A stretch of 64,000 nt of DNA. Origin: Wenzhouxiangella sp. (GTDB lineage Bacteria > Pseudomonadota > Gammaproteobacteria > Xanthomonadales > Wenzhouxiangellaceae). Positions 2,314-24,406 of this stretch are shown here, one piece after another. A program made the translations under genes and the position numbers. The notes beneath the pieces are model-generated. The model made no database searches. It was given only the letters and a program-made list of their open reading frames with translations, and was not told where the DNA came from. Each line of letters starts with the position of its first letter. The first letter of the stretch is position 1. The stretch covers positions 1 through 64,000 of the forward strand of contig SKQS01000008.1 in the NCBI GenBank assembly GCA_007118895.1. Reading direction: 5' to 3'.

Positions 2314-4005
2314 GTGGATTTGGACAATGTGATGGGCGGAGACGAGGCCGACGAGCTGATCTTCGCCGATGCTTTCGAGGCAATCAGTCAACCGCCGGTG
2401 CCGTTTGCCCGCAGGGTGCTGGAGCGCCTCAGTTATGGTGCGACGCCGGAATCGCTGGCCGAGTTCGAGGCGCTGGGTGGCGATGATCAGGCCCGCCTGA
2501 CGGCATGGGTTGACTGGCAGCTCAATCCGCAGGCCATCGACGATAGCCATTGCCAGTCGCTGATCCTTTCTGGCGGCTACCAGACCCTGGACAAGCCGCT
2601 TGCCCAGTTGTGGGCGGATCATGTGCGCGGGAGCATGAGCAGCGGGTCGCAGCGCTATCTGCCGGTGGCCGAGACAGACGCGGCACGGATTGTTCGCGCC
2701 CAGTCCAGCCGCCGGCAGCTCTACGAAATGATGGTCGAATTCTGGCATGACCATTTCAACGTGTTCGGCTGGTCATTCTCGATTGCCCCGGTGTTTGCTC
2801 ACTATGACCGCGATGTGATTCGTCCCAACGCCCTGGGCAACTTTCGCGAGATGATCGAGCTGGTCGCCTCATCGACCGCGATGCTCTACTACCTGGACAA
2901 CCGTTCCAGCCGGGGCTCAGAGTTCAACGAGAACTATGCCCGCGAGCTGCTCGAGCTTCACACCATGGGCACCGATGCCTACTTCCCGACCAACGACCCC
3001 GGTGACGTGCCTATCGGGCCGGACGGTATGCCGGCCGGTTATTCCGACTGGGATGTGTACGAGGCGGCGCGCTGCTTTACCGGCTGGACGGTGCGCAACG
3101 GCCACTGGCACTTTCCGTCGGATCCGGCCTACGACACCGGTGAATTTCTGTACTGGCCCGCCTGGCATGATGTGGCCGGGAAGTTCTTCCTTGGCCAGTT
3201 CATACTGCCCAGCCAGCCGGCGCTGGATGACGGCCGGCGGGTGCTTGACCGGCTGTGTCAGCACCAGGCCACGGCCCGGCACGTGTGCGCCAAGCTGATC
3301 CGGCGTTTTGTCGCCGACGAGCCACCGCCGGACCTGGTTGAATCAGTGGCGGCAGTATTTCTCGCCCACGGAGAGGCGCCGGACCAGATTGCACGCGTGC
3401 TGCGCCATGTGCTGCTGGCTCCGGAAGCCTTCGATACTGGCAGCGGCAAGGTGCGCCGACCGTGGGAACTGGTCATGGCGGCCTTGCGCAAGACTCAGGC
3501 AGACGCGGTGCCGATTCCATACTCGGACTGGCAGCCCTGGGGGCTGTTTTTCAATCGGCTGAACCAGACCGGACACGCTTCGTTTCGATGGCAGCCGCCG
3601 GACGGATACCCGGATACCGCCTCACGCTGGACCTCGGTCTCGGCGATGGGCCAGTCGTGGCGGCTATTGAGCGTATTGCCCGAGCTTCGCGAGGGTTCGG
3701 TGCCGGTACTGCCGGTGGTCGCGCTGACCCTGCAGGCTTTTCCAGACCCGGCCAGCCGCAGCGCGGCGGCGATAGTTGACTGGTGGCTGGATCGCCTGCT
3801 GGGTTATTCGCCGGAGCCTGCGCGGCGCACCCGGCTGATCAGCTTCCTGCGTCAGAACGCCGCCTTCGACGAGCCGCTGGACCTGGAGAGCTCGGCGCCT
3901 GACGGGTTCTGGTCGTCCGGCAATCTCAAGAATCACTATGTGCAGGCACGGCTGCGCACCACCGTCGCCCTGATGTTCACCCTGCCGGAATTCCACCGGC
4001 GCTGA
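2314..4005 (+). CDS. DUF1800 family protein
   Basis: About 563 residues, recognisable as DUF1800: an early PFARRVLERLSYGATPE segment, then MVEFWHDHFNVFGW, then ENYARELLELHTMG, then EAARCFTGWTV. GTG 2314 is preferred because GGGAGG lies six bases before it. TTG 2308 and ATG 2332 are in-frame alternatives, and an in-frame stop at 2269 rules out a longer start. No signal peptide is visible. It lies 13 bases before a DUF1501 gene, and the two families are very often paired. The biochemical function of the pair is not established. The call is secure at family level only. Confidence 0.9.
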   Translation: MDLDNVMGGDEADELIFADAFEAISQPPVPFARRVLERLSYGATPESLAEFEALGGDDQARLTAWVDWQLNPQAIDDSHCQSLILSGGYQTLDKPLAQLWADHVRGSMSSGSQRYLPVAETDAARIVRAQSSRRQLYEMMVEFWHDHFNVFGWSFSIAPVFAHYDRDVIRPNALGNFREMIELVASSTAMLYYLDNRSSRGSEFNENYARELLELHTMGTDAYFPTNDPGDVPIGPDGMPAGYSDWDVYEAARCFTGWTVRNGHWHFPSDPAYDTGEFLYWPAWHDVAGKFFLGQFILPSQPALDDGRRVLDRLCQHQATARHVCAKLIRRFVADEPPPDLVESVAAVFLAHGEAPDQIARVLRHVLLAPEAFDTGSGKVRRPWELVMAALRKTQADAVPIPYSDWQPWGLFFNRLNQTGHASFRWQPPDGYPDTASRWTSVSAMGQSWRLLSVLPELREGSVPVLPVVALTLQAFPDPASRSAAAIVDWWLDRLLGYSPEPARRTRLISFLRQNAAFDEPLDLESSAPDGFWSSGNLKNHYVQARLRTTVALMFTLPEFHRR

Positions 4006-4018
4006 CCGAGGCCCCACG

Positions 4019-5389
4019 ATGAAAAGAAGAACCTTTCTGAAAGGGTGCGGAGCGGCTGCCGGGGTAGGGATGCTGCCGGTCAGCGGCTGGTTCAATCCCT
4101 TTGCCTTCGGCGCTGGCCTGCAGAACGACGTACTGGTCTACTGCTTTCTGCGCGGCGGCATAGACGGCCTGCATCTGCTGGCGCCGATATCCGGTCCGGA
4201 GCGATTTCCTTACGAGGACAAGCGCCAGAACATGGCGATCCCCGCCGGGCGCCTGCGCCCGCTGGAAGGCCACTGGGGACTGCATCCGCGAATCGGCGGC
4301 GCGGCCGGCGATCCGGTCGGCACCGTGCCGAAGTGGCTGCATGAGCTCTACAACCAGCAGCGACTGGCCATCATTCAAGCCGCCGGCATGCCAACCGTGG
4401 TCAACCGCAGCCACTTCGATGCCCAGGCCTTCATGGATCTGGGCACGCCGGGCAACAAGTCGGGCAGCCAGGGCTGGCTGGCTCGCTACCTGGCCTCCGC
4501 GACCGGCTTGCCCGAACCGCTGCTCAGTTCCGCCTTCGGCTTTGCCAGCGTTCAGCCGCTGCCGCTGTTCGGTAACGATTCGGCCTTTACCCTGAATAGC
4601 GCCCAGGAGTTCCGGGTCGACGGCTTCCACTGGTCGTGGAACAACACCAATCCTGATATCGCAGGTCATGCCGGCGCCCATCACCAGTTGTTCCCGCTGT
4701 GGCTTGGCGCTCAGTCGGACCTGGTCCAGGCCGGCCGACTGGCCGCCGAGGCGCTGGCCTACCTGCGAGAGATCGACTTCCGCCTGTTCCATCCCGACAA
4801 TGCCCCGACCGGCTACCAGCCCGAGGGCGGCGCCCAGTACCCGGATACCGGACTGGGTACGCAGCTTAGAAACCTGGCCCAGTTGATCAAGCTTGATGCC
4901 GGCCTGGTTGCGGCCACGGTGGACTTCGGCGGCTGGGACACCCACGACGGGCAGGGCATGCCCGATCCCGGCAACCCCAACCATTTCGACTATTTCGGCA
5001 ACCGGATCGAGGAATTCTCGCGCGCCCTGCATGCCTTCTACAGCGATCTGGCCGGCTCGGTCCAGGGCGACTTCATGCAGCGGGTCAACGTGGTTGTCTT
5101 GAGCGAGTTCGGCCGCCGGGTCCGGCCCAACGCCTCCAGCGGCACCGATCACGGCTACGGCAACGTGATGATGGCGCTGGGTGGACGGGTCAACGGCGGG
5201 CTGCACGGCCAGTTCCCCGGGCTGGACGACCTGGCGCTGTTCCAGGGTCAGGATCTCGACGCCGATATCGATTACCGGCAGATTCTTTCCGAACTGCTGG
5301 TCAGGCGCCTGGGCTTTTCAGCTTCCGGTCTGGAATCGGTCTTCCCGGGCCTGGGCAGCTACCAGCCGGTGGGCATCTTCCAGAGTTGA
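4019..5389 (+). CDS. DUF1501 family protein with Tat signal
   Basis: 456 residues. The N terminus MKRRTFLKGCGAAAGVG is a twin-arginine (Tat) export signal, implying folding in the cytoplasm before export. DUF1501 belongs to the alkaline-phosphatase-like/sulfatase-like superfamily. Visible landmarks are DVLVYCFLRGGIDGLHLL near the start, VVNRSHFDAQAFMDLG, ATVDFGGWDTHDGQ, VVLSEFGRRVRPNASSGTDHG and a glycine-rich end. It starts 13 bases after the DUF1800 gene, so they are probably one operon. The downstream M3 peptidase gene converges on it, with 34 bases between the stops. Confidence 0.92.
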   Translation: MKRRTFLKGCGAAAGVGMLPVSGWFNPFAFGAGLQNDVLVYCFLRGGIDGLHLLAPISGPERFPYEDKRQNMAIPAGRLRPLEGHWGLHPRIGGAAGDPVGTVPKWLHELYNQQRLAIIQAAGMPTVVNRSHFDAQAFMDLGTPGNKSGSQGWLARYLASATGLPEPLLSSAFGFASVQPLPLFGNDSAFTLNSAQEFRVDGFHWSWNNTNPDIAGHAGAHHQLFPLWLGAQSDLVQAGRLAAEALAYLREIDFRLFHPDNAPTGYQPEGGAQYPDTGLGTQLRNLAQLIKLDAGLVAATVDFGGWDTHDGQGMPDPGNPNHFDYFGNRIEEFSRALHAFYSDLAGSVQGDFMQRVNVVVLSEFGRRVRPNASSGTDHGYGNVMMALGGRVNGGLHGQFPGLDDLALFQGQDLDADIDYRQILSELLVRRLGFSASGLESVFPGLGSYQPVGIFQS

Positions 5390-20626: not shown

Positions 20627-21318
20627 ATGCGGTTCTGGTCGATGACGAGCCGCCGGCACTGGAACGTCTCAAGCGCATGTTGGAGGAGGGTGGGCAGGCC
20701 AGGGCGATTGCCTGCCTGTCCAATCCGGCCGATGTCGAGTCCTGCTGCAAACGCCTGCATCCCGACCTGGTGATCCTGGACATCGAAATGCCGGGCGTGG
20801 ACGGCGTCAGCCTGGCCCGGCGGCTGGCCGGGCTAAGCTCGCCGCCGGCCGTTATTTTCTGCACTGCATACGAAAATTACGCGGTGGATGCTTTCGAGAT
20901 CGATGCCGTCGACTACCTGGTCAAGCCGATTCGGGCACAACGCCTGAACCGTGCCCTGGAGCGGGTGCGGCGGTCCCGGCTGACCTCAAGGCAGGACTGG
21001 CTGAGTGCCCGCCTGGGTGACCGGCTGCTCAAGATCCCGCTGGCCAGCATTCGGGTGCTGGCAGCCGAGGACAAGTACACCTGCGTCCACCACCTGGAAG
21101 GCCAGGCCCTGGTGGAGGACTCGCTGGTCAGCCTGGAACAGCGTTATCCGGAGACCTTCATGCGGATTCACCGCTCGACTCTGGTCAGCCGCGCTCACCT
21201 CAAGGCCCTGTTCCGCGATGCGGAGGGCAGGGACCTGGTCGAAGTCGATGGGGTGGCCCTGCAGCCGGAAGTCAGCCGAAGAAACCTGGCCGAGGTGCGA
21301 AAGTGGCTGCAGAACTGA
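20590..21318 (+). CDS. algR: AlgR-type LytTR response regulator
   Basis: 242 residues. The receiver domain runs from NAVLVDDEPPALERL, with phospho-acceptor in LVILDIEMPGVDG and the conserved lysine in DYLVKPIRAQRL. A LytTR DNA-binding domain follows (IPLASIRVLAAEDKYTCVH...FMRIHRSTLVSRAHL). GTG 20605, preceded by GGAGCG, is as likely a start as GTG 20590. As in Pseudomonas, it lies directly before hemC, but no AlgZ-type kinase is next to it; an esterase takes that place. The end overlaps hemC by 16 bases. Confidence 0.9.
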   Translation: MAGAGVVESQKLNAVLVDDEPPALERLKRMLEEGGQARAIACLSNPADVESCCKRLHPDLVILDIEMPGVDGVSLARRLAGLSSPPAVIFCTAYENYAVDAFEIDAVDYLVKPIRAQRLNRALERVRRSRLTSRQDWLSARLGDRLLKIPLASIRVLAAEDKYTCVHHLEGQALVEDSLVSLEQRYPETFMRIHRSTLVSRAHLKALFRDAEGRDLVEVDGVALQPEVSRRNLAEVRKWLQN

Positions 21319-22256
21319 ACCGGCCACGACGAGTGCGGATTGCCACCCGGAAGTCGCCGCTGGCGCTGTGGCAGGCAGAGCATGCCGCGGTCATGCTGTC
21401 AGCCCGGTGTCCCGACCTGGTTCCGGATCTGGTCCCAATGACCACCCGCGGTGACCAGATCCTGGATCGCTCACTGGCCGAATTCGGTGGCAAGGGCTTG
21501 TTCCTGAAAGAGCTTGAGCATGCCATTCTGGAAGGTCGGGCCGACTTGGCCGTGCACTCGCTTAAAGACGTGCCGGCCACCCTGCCGGACGGGCTGTGCC
21601 TGGCCTGCTTTCTGCCGCGCGAGGATCATCGTGACCTGTGGTTGAGCGCTGATGGCCTGCCGGTAGGCGAGATGCCCGACGGCAGTCGGGTCGGCACCTC
21701 CAGTCTGCGACGTCAGAGCCAGCTGCTGGCCATGCATCACGGCCTGGAGATCGTCGCCGTGCGCGGCAATGTGCAGACGCGTCTGGAGCATCTGGACGAC
21801 GGACGGGTCGACGCGCTGGTGCTGGCTGCTGCCGGCCTCAAGCGCTTGGGACTAAGTCCACCCAACTGCCGGGTTCTTGACGGGCCTGAGTTCCTGCCGG
21901 CGCCGGGTCAGGGTGTGATCGCCATCGAGTGCCGTGCCGATGATCACCGACTGATCCAGCAACTTGAGTCGATCGCCTGTCCCGACACCACAATGGCGGT
22001 ACGCGCCGAGCGGGCGGTAGTTCAGGCCCTGGGCGGCGACTGTCGCATGCCGCTGGCGGCCCTTGCGCGTCTTGGCGGCGAAGATATGGCGCTGCATGCC
22101 CGGCTGGCCAGCCCCGACGGCCAGACCTTGATCGACGCGGTCGTTGAAGGAAGTGCCGGGCAGGCTGAGTCGCTCGGGCAGCAAGCAGCTGACTTGCTGA
22201 TCGAGCGTGGTGGCCAATCCATTCTTGATGGTCTGGAGCCTGCCCGTGGGTCGTGA
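21303..22256 (+). CDS. hemC: HemC, porphobilinogen deaminase
   Basis: 317 residues from GTG 21303, inside the end of algR. Landmarks are RIATRKSPLALWQAEH, GGKGLFLKELEHAIL, DLAVHSLKDVPATLP, VGTSSLRRQSQL, VRGNVQTRL and APGQGVIAIECR. The dipyrromethane cofactor cysteine is in ALGGDCRMPLAAL. It joins four porphobilinogens into hydroxymethylbilane, the substrate of HemD. HemD is not adjacent: a methyltransferase gene and a likely RNA gene lie between. Confidence 0.97.
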   Translation: MAAELNRPRRVRIATRKSPLALWQAEHAAVMLSARCPDLVPDLVPMTTRGDQILDRSLAEFGGKGLFLKELEHAILEGRADLAVHSLKDVPATLPDGLCLACFLPREDHRDLWLSADGLPVGEMPDGSRVGTSSLRRQSQLLAMHHGLEIVAVRGNVQTRLEHLDDGRVDALVLAAAGLKRLGLSPPNCRVLDGPEFLPAPGQGVIAIECRADDHRLIQQLESIACPDTTMAVRAERAVVQALGGDCRMPLAALARLGGEDMALHARLASPDGQTLIDAVVEGSAGQAESLGQQAADLLIERGGQSILDGLEPARGS

Positions 22257-23388
22257 GAACTCGATTGATCCGTCAATGAGCCCGCCGGCCGATCTTCCGC
22301 GGCTGGTGGGCGAGCTGGCCGCCCAGGTGCTCGGCACCGATCGGCTTGCAGTGGATGTCGACGTCGACCCACGCTGCCAGATGCTGGCTCACTCGCTGCG
22401 CCATCACGATCATCCCGGGGCGGCCTGGAGCCAGTATTACAACGTGGCGCTTCAGCAGTTCTCCATGCTGTGCCAAGTCCGCGAGCGCCTGGCGGGCCGG
22501 TGGCCAGCGAGCCCGCGAGTGCTGGATTTTGCCTGCGGCTACGGGAGGCTGACCCGGCTGCTGGTTCATGCCGTGCCCGCCGAGCGAATCTGGGCGGCCG
22601 AGATCCAGCCCGAGGCGGTCAGCTACCTGTCTCGTCGCTTCGGTGTTCACGGCCTGGTTTCCCCGCCCGGCCCGGAAGACTTCACTCCTGACCGGCAGTT
22701 CGACCTGATCTGGGTCGCCTCGCTGTTTTCTCACTTGCCTGAATCCCTGTTCCGGCGCTGGCTCAAGCGGCTGCTGACGCAGTTGTCCAGTGATGGTGTG
22801 CTTTGCTTCAGCGTGTGTGACCAGGCGATTTTGCCCGCCGGCATGCATATGCCGTCAGATGGTCTGCTGTTCTTTCAATCCAGTGAGATCGATTCACTGG
22901 ATCGCGAGATCTATGGCGCAACCTACGTCACCGAATCATTCGTCAGGGCAGCGATTGCCGATCTGGCCGGCGCCGACCGACCGATCTGGCGGATACCCAG
23001 GGGTCTGGCGCATGAGCAGGATTTGTACATCGTGGCCGGCGATGACAGCATGAGCCTTCCCGATCTGGACGACATCGATCGCGGCACCTGGGGCTGGGTC
23101 GACCTCCGCCAGCGCCAGCCAGACGGCTCGATCGAGCTGGCCGGGTGGGCGGCCTCGCTCGATCATGGTCCGGCCGACGAGGTCATGGTCAGTGCAGCCG
23201 GGCAAGTCTGGCGGACAGGCTGCAATTTGATCCGCCCGGATGTTGCCGAATCGCTGGGCAACCCGGCACTTGCCCCCAGCGGCTGGTCGCTGACGATTGC
23301 ACCTGCCGTACATGGACCGCAAGAAGTCATCGTTTGCGCCAAGGTTGGCGAGTACCCGCCCGCGCTGCTGTTTAGTGGTGAGCTGTGA
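22246..23388 (+). CDS. SAM-dependent methyltransferase with C-terminal extra domain
   Basis: About 380 residues from GTG 22246, which has GGAG eight bases upstream; ATG 22276 is an alternative. The SAM domain is VLDFACGYGRLTRLLV, then AAEIQPEAVSYLSRRFG and FDLIWVASLFSHLPESLF. After the methyltransferase a C-terminal segment of about 110 residues (WGWVDLRQRQPDGSIELAGWAASLD onward) looks like a separate beta domain, often seen in glycan- or cell-surface-related methyltransferases. The substrate is unknown. The gene overlaps hemC by 11 bases and interrupts the usual hemC-hemD pair. Confidence 0.85.
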   Translation: MGRENSIDPSMSPPADLPRLVGELAAQVLGTDRLAVDVDVDPRCQMLAHSLRHHDHPGAAWSQYYNVALQQFSMLCQVRERLAGRWPASPRVLDFACGYGRLTRLLVHAVPAERIWAAEIQPEAVSYLSRRFGVHGLVSPPGPEDFTPDRQFDLIWVASLFSHLPESLFRRWLKRLLTQLSSDGVLCFSVCDQAILPAGMHMPSDGLLFFQSSEIDSLDREIYGATYVTESFVRAAIADLAGADRPIWRIPRGLAHEQDLYIVAGDDSMSLPDLDDIDRGTWGWVDLRQRQPDGSIELAGWAASLDHGPADEVMVSAAGQVWRTGCNLIRPDVAESLGNPALAPSGWSLTIAPAVHGPQEVIVCAKVGEYPPALLFSGEL

Positions 23389-23479
23389 CCTGCCTCTATT
23401 GGTTCATTTGCAAAAAATCTAAATTCCGGGCTGGACAAGCCGGATTGGCTATGGCAATATTACAACCGTGTTGATCACT

Positions 23480-23646
23480 TAGGGTGGTTCACCGATTAGC
23501 TTTCCGGGTGTCGTCCACGGCATGAATTGCTGATGTGCGTCCCCCTACTGCCAACGCCAACACGCAAGCCCCCTGCACGTTGGTGATTTGTGTCAGACAC
23601 CCGGATCTTATCCTAGGCCCGTCGTAAGCGACGGGTCTTTTTTTTG
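23480..23646 (+). ncRNA. Candidate structured RNA or hemD leader
   Basis: The 262-base gap before hemD holds a foldable unit. A perfect 10-base stem closes it (TCCGGGTGTC at 23503-23512 with GACACCCGGA at 23596-23605). Inside, CCAACG (23551-23556) pairs with CGTTGG (23578-23583), and GCA/TGC presents the C-rich loop AGCCCCC. A second C-rich run (CCCCCT) is at 23541-23546. A small GGTG/CACC hairpin is at 23483-23493. An intrinsic terminator ends the unit at 23645. A weak promoter may be TGGACA (23432) with CAATAT (23455). I cannot match it to a known family. It is either a free small RNA or an attenuating leader of hemD. Confidence 0.5.
23618..23645 (+). terminator. Intrinsic terminator directly before hemD
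   Basis: The stem CCCGTCG (23618-23624) and CGACGGG (23629-23635) surrounds the loop TAAG and is followed by TCTTTTTTTT. This is a textbook Rho-independent terminator on the plus strand. The hemD ATG begins only five bases after the T run, so hemD has no separate ribosome site outside the hairpin and no room for its own promoter after it. Confidence 0.9.
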
Positions 23647-23650
23647 CTCG

Positions 23651-24406
23651 ATGTCCTTATCACCATTGATCGTTGTCACCCGCCCCGAGCCTGCTGCCTC
23701 AGCCCTGGTTGCCCGCCTGGTGTCGGCTGGACATAGCGCGCTTGCGCTGCCGCTGATTCGGGTTGGTCCGGTCGCCGAGCAGGAAGAAGCGAGGGGCCGA
23801 CTTTCTGCAGCGCTGCCGGCCGATGTCCTGGTGTTCACAAGTGCCGAGGGCGTGCGCCAGTCAGTATCGCTGGCTGGCGTCGAGGCGCTGAATGCCCAAC
23901 CGATAGTCGTTCCCGGTCCGGGCACCGCAGCGGTGGCGGCAACTTCGGGGTTGAAGCAGGTTTGTTTTCCGCCTGCCGGCGGCACCAGCGAGGCCATGCT
24001 GACACTTCCGGAGCTTGAGTCGGTGAAGGGCAGGCGCGTGCTGATCCTGGCTGCTGCCGATGGTCGGCGCAAGCTGGACAAGGTGCTGGGCCAGCGCGGT
24101 GCGCGGGTTGAGCGCTTGGTGGTTTATGAGCGCACGCCGGTTGAGCCGGATTGGCAGGCCCTGAGCGCGATAAGCAGGGCCGGGCAGGTGATCGTGCTGG
24201 TGACAAGCAGTGAGGTATTGCGGCGTCTGGGCGAACTGATCGCGCCGGAGCAGCGCATGCAAGATGGGTGGTTGACCCTGCTCGTTGCCTCCTCCCGATT
24301 GGCAGGCATTGCCAGGGACAGCGGTTTTGTACAGGTGATCAACGCCGGCGCAGCTGACGATGCGAGCATGCTCGAGGTGCTGGCAGGAATGGATGTGATC
24401 CGTTAG
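23651..24406 (+). CDS. hemD: HemD, uroporphyrinogen-III synthase
   Basis: 251 residues from ATG 23651 (MSLSPLIVVTRPEPAA). The fold is typical of this poorly conserved family: VTRP near the start, DVLVFTSAEGVRQSV, IVVPGPGTAAVAATSG, GRRVLILAAADGRRKL, and VVYERTP before the second half. It closes hydroxymethylbilane into uroporphyrinogen III. An intrinsic terminator and possible structured RNA lie immediately upstream. A TTG at 23588 opens the same frame through that hairpin. hemX follows 33 bases later. Confidence 0.93.
   Translation: MSLSPLIVVTRPEPAASALVARLVSAGHSALALPLIRVGPVAEQEEARGRLSAALPADVLVFTSAEGVRQSVSLAGVEALNAQPIVVPGPGTAAVAATSGLKQVCFPPAGGTSEAMLTLPELESVKGRRVLILAAADGRRKLDKVLGQRGARVERLVVYERTPVEPDWQALSAISRAGQVIVLVTSSEVLRRLGELIAPEQRMQDGWLTLLVASSRLAGIARDSGFVQVINAGAADDASMLEVLAGMDVIR

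Follow-up and report, generated by a model that had tools for sequence, protein, structure and literature searches.

The hemC-hemD interval

The window, which is the whole stretch of 64,000 nucleotides that was analysed, carries two genes of heme synthesis separated by a methyltransferase-like open reading frame and a structured intergenic gap. Within this gap (23389-23650), a closing stem of 10 bp and another long stem carry a C-rich apical loop, and an intrinsic terminator follows. The features are as follows.

21303-22256, + strand: hemC, porphobilinogen deaminase, the neighbour upstream of the RNA (Pfam PF01379, E 1.1e-75)
22207-23388, + strand: methyltransferase-like open reading frame in the hemC-RNA interval (Pfam Methyltransf_23, E 5e-10)
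23432-23437, + strand: putative -35 element, TGGACA, of the small RNA promoter
23455-23460, + strand: putative -10 element, CAATAT, preceded by TGG (extended -10, consensus TGnCAnAnT)
23467-23646, + strand: whole predicted small RNA, its ends placed from the promoter and terminator positions
23502-23605, + strand: conserved structured core of 104 nt (model R1)
23503-23512, + strand: helix 1, 5' arm, TCCGGGTGTC, pairing with 23596-23605 (10 bp)
23519-23538, + strand: helix 2, 5' arm, pairing with 23575-23594
23538-23573, + strand: apical loop, CGTCCCCCTACTGCCAACGCCAACACGCAAGCCCCC, of which the first base closes the stem
23575-23594, + strand: helix 2, 3' arm, pairing with 23519-23538
23596-23605, + strand: helix 1, 3' arm, GACACCCGGA, pairing with 23503-23512
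23615-23645, + strand: intrinsic terminator, a 10-bp stem followed by T8
23651-24406, + strand: hemD, uroporphyrinogen-III synthase (Pfam HEM4, E 8.6e-31)

The annotated start of hemD looks right, given the Pfam HEM4 match and an N-terminus that aligns with those of relatives. The real start of the methyltransferase-like open reading frame probably lies further inside. No such frame is present in the other hemC-RNA gaps that were measured. The distance from the end of hemC to the loop is 1288 nt in the window versus 85-223 nt in most relatives, and in the window the methyltransferase-like frame has been interposed between the two.

A covarying two-helix fold

A 147-nt segment folds at -60.4 kcal/mol (z = -5.25, a value equalled by none of 200 shuffles), and the whole predicted transcript gives z = -4.40. 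The fold, together with homologues that display strong covariation, means that the structure exceeds what is expected by chance. The core was recovered from 32 genomes of the window's own family, with every copy 104 nt long and free of indels; the model built from them matches the window's genome with E 1e-24, the window copy being itself in the model. Across these copies the 28 pairs of the two helices are paired in 98.1% of cells and 17 of them have changed on both sides, a level reached by none of 500 shuffles, and structures slid along the alignment are only 31-40% paired. When a second family is included the number of pairs changed on both sides rises to 22 of 28, although this alignment was fitted to the model and hence leans towards it, whereas the family-only alignment was not. 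The members of each family, taken alone, give the same fold.

The helices contribute as follows. In helix 1 all cells (100%) are paired and 7 of the 10 pairs are compensatory across the two families; in helix 2 both sides have changed in 13 of 18 pairs within the family and in 15 of 18 across the two. The resulting architecture is one stacked stem with one apical loop, followed by the terminator. The closing 10-base stem described in the first-pass annotation is present and always paired in homologues, the covariation that it had called for is found in both stems, and the second C-rich run, the terminator and a hemD ATG (23651) five bases 3' of the T run are all where it placed them. Its inner CCAACG/CGTTGG hairpin fares differently. 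The window sequence allows it to be drawn, but 25 of 32 relatives break pair 54-78 without compensation; the fold that is conserved places CCAACG in the loop and gives CGTTGG the 5' side of helix 2 as its partner.

Could the uniform length reflect coding? A small conserved peptide might be proposed from the open frames in the loop and the constant size of the family copies, yet none of the frames stays open throughout the 32, amino-acid-changing differences exceed silent ones in every frame (4479 against 1273 at best), variable columns are distributed across all codon positions, and lengths in the other family vary. With no conserved reading frame the peptide was rejected and is regarded as very improbable.

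The invariant apical loop

The 36 columns of the loop are without any variation in 32 of 32 aligned copies while the stems vary. C runs lie at 23541-23545 and 23569-23573, within UCCCCCU and GCCCCC respectively. The core of the loop, CTACT..CGCCAA.A.GCAA..CCC, is also retained in the other family and in reduced genomes, and one homologue (G158, AUAUCUACUG) has lost the 5' C run and retained the middle of the loop. The loop has GGGCUUGCGUGUUGGCG as its complement. In the window, the stretches that could pair with the loop are few and short, none longer than 12 nt once the RNA is set aside; they are not notable, and no target was found among them.

Boundaries of the RNA gene

The TGGACA site, which is also the one sigma-70-like site predicted, recurs as TGGACA or a one-base variant in 34 of 34 family copies inspected. 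The -10 pattern is kept in relatives, and the spacer is 17 nt in the window and 17-18 nt across the family copies inspected. The position of this promoter puts the probable transcription start near 23467 and so gives an RNA of about 180 nt. At the other end the terminator comprises a stem at 23615-23638 and eight T at 23638-23645, and a terminator-like hairpin follows 31 of the 32 family copies; none was found in four homologues of the other family or in the reduced genomes. At the level of sequence, the RNA gene of the window has its own promoter and intrinsic terminator, as a trans-acting small RNA gene would, and the RNA would be transcribed as a separate unit.

Several further elements surround the promoter. 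At many family loci (e.g. L024, L025, L010) an inverted repeat like TGTCACA..TTGTGA is found some 40-60 nt 5' of the -35 element; it resembles a regulator site, and no such repeat is seen at the copy of the window. In the other family (L100, L101, L102) a conserved TTTACGATAnTGTTCGTAnTAAG with the inverted repeat TACGA..TCGTA replaces the TGGACA promoter and lies some 65-80 nt upstream of the stem of the RNA. The leader between promoter and stem contains, at most family loci (e.g. L012, L013), a conserved GGGG run and ACGATTTGCTT; this G run could pair with a C run of the loop, and was not seen in the other-family copies looked at.

Distribution and independence from hemC and hemD

By blastn, 30 of the 61 genomes searched carry the RNA, every one from the window's own family, and a short-pattern search found it in 36 of 43 Wenzhouxiangellaceae genomes, covering four of seven genera. 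The cultured species W. sediminis and W. limi are among the carriers. The synteny is strong, with family copies nearly always sitting between hemC and hemD. The covariance model adds four copies of 98-103 nt in another family of the same order, directly 3' of hemC. Wider searches, which apply strict filters, gave no credible further homologue in 369 genomes spread over the class, and viral contigs, plasmids and phages gave no match, the phages being searched with less than the full hem-linked RNA. Two 31-bit matches were rejected, one (G251, L128) falling in a GC-rich palindromic insert within coding sequence and the other (G596, L107/L146) lying inside a vWA-like gene on the opposite strand, and many of the 52 loci from a pattern scan of genome contigs fail the model and are put down to chance.

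The RNA is absent from three of the family's genera and from two other-family genomes, and so is not essential everywhere. On a HemC tree the carriers cluster, with 3 state changes against a shuffled mean of 14.8. The two other-family non-carriers nest among carriers and have hemC abutting hemD, which suggests loss of the RNA.

Why, then, is the RNA located so consistently ahead of hemD? The first-pass annotation had considered an attenuator or riboswitch-like leader for heme synthesis; as a cis-acting leader it would set hemD expression through terminator read-through. Its near-fixed location in the family, the terminator in all but one family copy and a hemD start so close to the T run, here and in some relatives, would all fit such a role. 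Between the terminator and hemD, the window and some relatives leave no space for a hemD promoter, from which it follows that hemD probably depends on read-through. To this extent the claim that hemD must cope with the structure stands, but the RNA is not dedicated to hemD. In two reduced genomes, G030 (95% complete) and G065 (63%), the locus order is carboxylesterase, RNA, hemX-like gene, such that a LytTR gene, hemC and hemD are gone and the RNA and its promoter are kept; the hemX-like assignment is based on position, the mutual similarity of the two genes and a weak match to the HemX of the window. No hemC match was found in either genome, and the absence of hemD refers to the locus. Two further reduced genomes without hemC are also without the RNA.

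The retention of RNA and promoter where hemC and hemD have been lost from the locus separates the RNA from its neighbours, and indicates that it works apart from hemD and is not merely a hemD switch. A riboswitch or attenuator would be expected only before the gene that it controls, with its terminator conserved alongside the aptamer-like part; here the terminator is a feature of the window's family, missing from the four other-family homologues and the reduced genomes. Moreover, no conserved alternative pairing was seen and the same loop is present at non-heme sites. The leader reading mostly fails on these points and is considered improbable.

Relationship to known RNAs

At the gathering score Rfam returned no family match, tRNA apart, in the window or 14 related loci. 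Relaxed thresholds gave nothing credible, the weak matches being mainly on the terminator side. Literature searches on heme-linked RNA produced nothing relevant and, in the literature searched, no small RNA paper for the lineage. On this comparison the RNA is a structured family absent from Rfam; its comparative support is very strong, and its fixed loop is of unusual length.

The length near 180 nt and the closing stem are reminiscent of 6S RNA, which raises the idea that it is some known housekeeping RNA in divergent form. Besides the lack of an Rfam match, however, the genome has its 6S RNA (RF00013) elsewhere (G000:C225:2837-3023, 103.1 bits), and this separate gene rules out a 6S identity, leaving a divergent housekeeping RNA a highly unlikely explanation.

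The closest parallel is sX13 of Xanthomonas, an RNA of 115 nt with three stem-loops that lies beside polA, is reported only from Xanthomonadaceae and uses C-rich loops, with UCCCCCU as the motif of loop 3, to repress mRNAs in which G-rich motifs lie close to the start (PMC3771888). Both are intergenic small RNA genes from the same bacterial order with a C-rich loop containing UCCCCCU. The hemD-side RNA differs in having one long stem and one 36-nt loop in place of three stem-loops with three C-rich apical loops, in its lack of an Rfam match, and in that the copies examined adjoin hemC/hemD or the remnant locus rather than polA. HPnc5490 of Helicobacter pylori, which also has a UCCCCCU loop and represses a target mRNA (PMC3771888), belongs to a different phylum and, by description, shares only the C-run motif. 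Burkholderia anti-hemB (RF02837) and the Betaproteobacteria toxic small RNA (RF02278) are likewise small hairpin RNAs, and members of the latter have CU-rich unpaired stretches and occur in several copies per genome (PMC5688073). The scores of 18.7 bits (cut-off 49.5) and 13.9 (cut-off 50), respectively, are well below threshold, and both weak matches are carried by the terminator, not the invariant loop.

Function of the loop

The reading that best accounts for these observations, and which is given a probability of about 0.55, is a gene for a stand-alone small regulatory RNA, about 180 nt long, with a C-rich loop that pairs in trans with G-rich mRNA starts. A sigma-70-type promoter would drive synthesis of the RNA, two stacked stems would expose the mostly unpaired 36-nt loop, and the intrinsic terminator would end the transcript. 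The loop would then act in trans, with UCCCCCU, GCCCCC and the intervening bases pairing with G-rich start regions of mRNAs in the manner of the sX13 loops, and any read-through into hemD would not be the purpose of the RNA. The first-pass annotation had offered a small RNA gene with C-rich loops as its second option, and this gene is favoured by its own promoter and terminator, the covarying scaffold, the invariant loop and its persistence without hemC and hemD. The pairing with mRNAs is the more conditional part of that claim: the presence of UCCCCCU and a second C run in the loop makes antisense action the leading hypothesis.

The constancy of the loop is a difficulty for pairing of this type. 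Given that G158 has lost the 5' C run and kept the middle of the loop, simple C-to-G pairing does not explain why 36 bases are fixed, whereas a protein partner would. The same small RNA gene may thus present its loop as a protein binding site, in a ribonucleoprotein or a protein-titrating RNA, with base pairing secondary. The 36 bases fixed in 32 genomes exceed what a C-run seed requires, the centre (CUACU..CGCCAA.A.GCAA) is retained even where the 5' run has gone, and elsewhere the loop sequence is largely kept on an unrelated minimal stem. These properties make a protein partner a strong rival, albeit one that is viewed as possible rather than probable, since there is no candidate protein and the loop has the UCCCCCU motif used by known antisense small RNAs.

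Minimal hairpins with the same loop

The loop is also found outside the full RNA, at accessory sites, in no fewer than eight hairpins, each about 66 nt long, where the same or a slightly shortened loop is mounted on a different 13-bp stem (GGTTGCCCGGC / GCCGGGCAACC type).

L172:1418-1495, minimal hairpin near an integrase-like gene (weak Pfam match)
L179:136-213, minimal hairpin
L181:3436-3511, minimal hairpin
L182:5600-5677, minimal hairpin near AbiEi/AbiEii
L183:4334-4408, minimal hairpin
L184:4307-4382, minimal hairpin near a tRNA, a primase-like gene and a ParA-like gene
L185:3766-3843, minimal hairpin
L186:6239-6316, minimal hairpin near AbiEi/AbiEii

Others lie between ordinary genes. 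Two further copies, more degenerate, were located, one (L217) close to SIR2 and an IS-type transposase and the other (L218) close to an integrase. Several minimal hairpins have a -10-like TGTGCTAnnAT immediately upstream. The stems show very little variation, which makes the pair statistics weak.

These hairpins may be mimics, decoys or relics. In one more specific and rather unlikely scenario, the loop would be recognized, as a module of 36 nt, by a single conserved partner, either protein or RNA; the minimal 13-bp hairpins, which have the same loop and are directly preceded by promoter-like sequence, would be carried by genomic islands and mimic the host RNA or serve as its decoys. In any event, the minimal hairpins constitute a natural test of the binding partner of the loop.

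Matches of a further model, R3, at L220-L223 were rejected, as stem or loop is not conserved in them. L219 has a tandem pair of minimal-type hairpins (3934-4011 and 4121-4196) with a spacing of about 190 nt, of which the second has kept the stem and not the loop. One minimal hairpin belongs to a bin labelled Verrucomicrobia.
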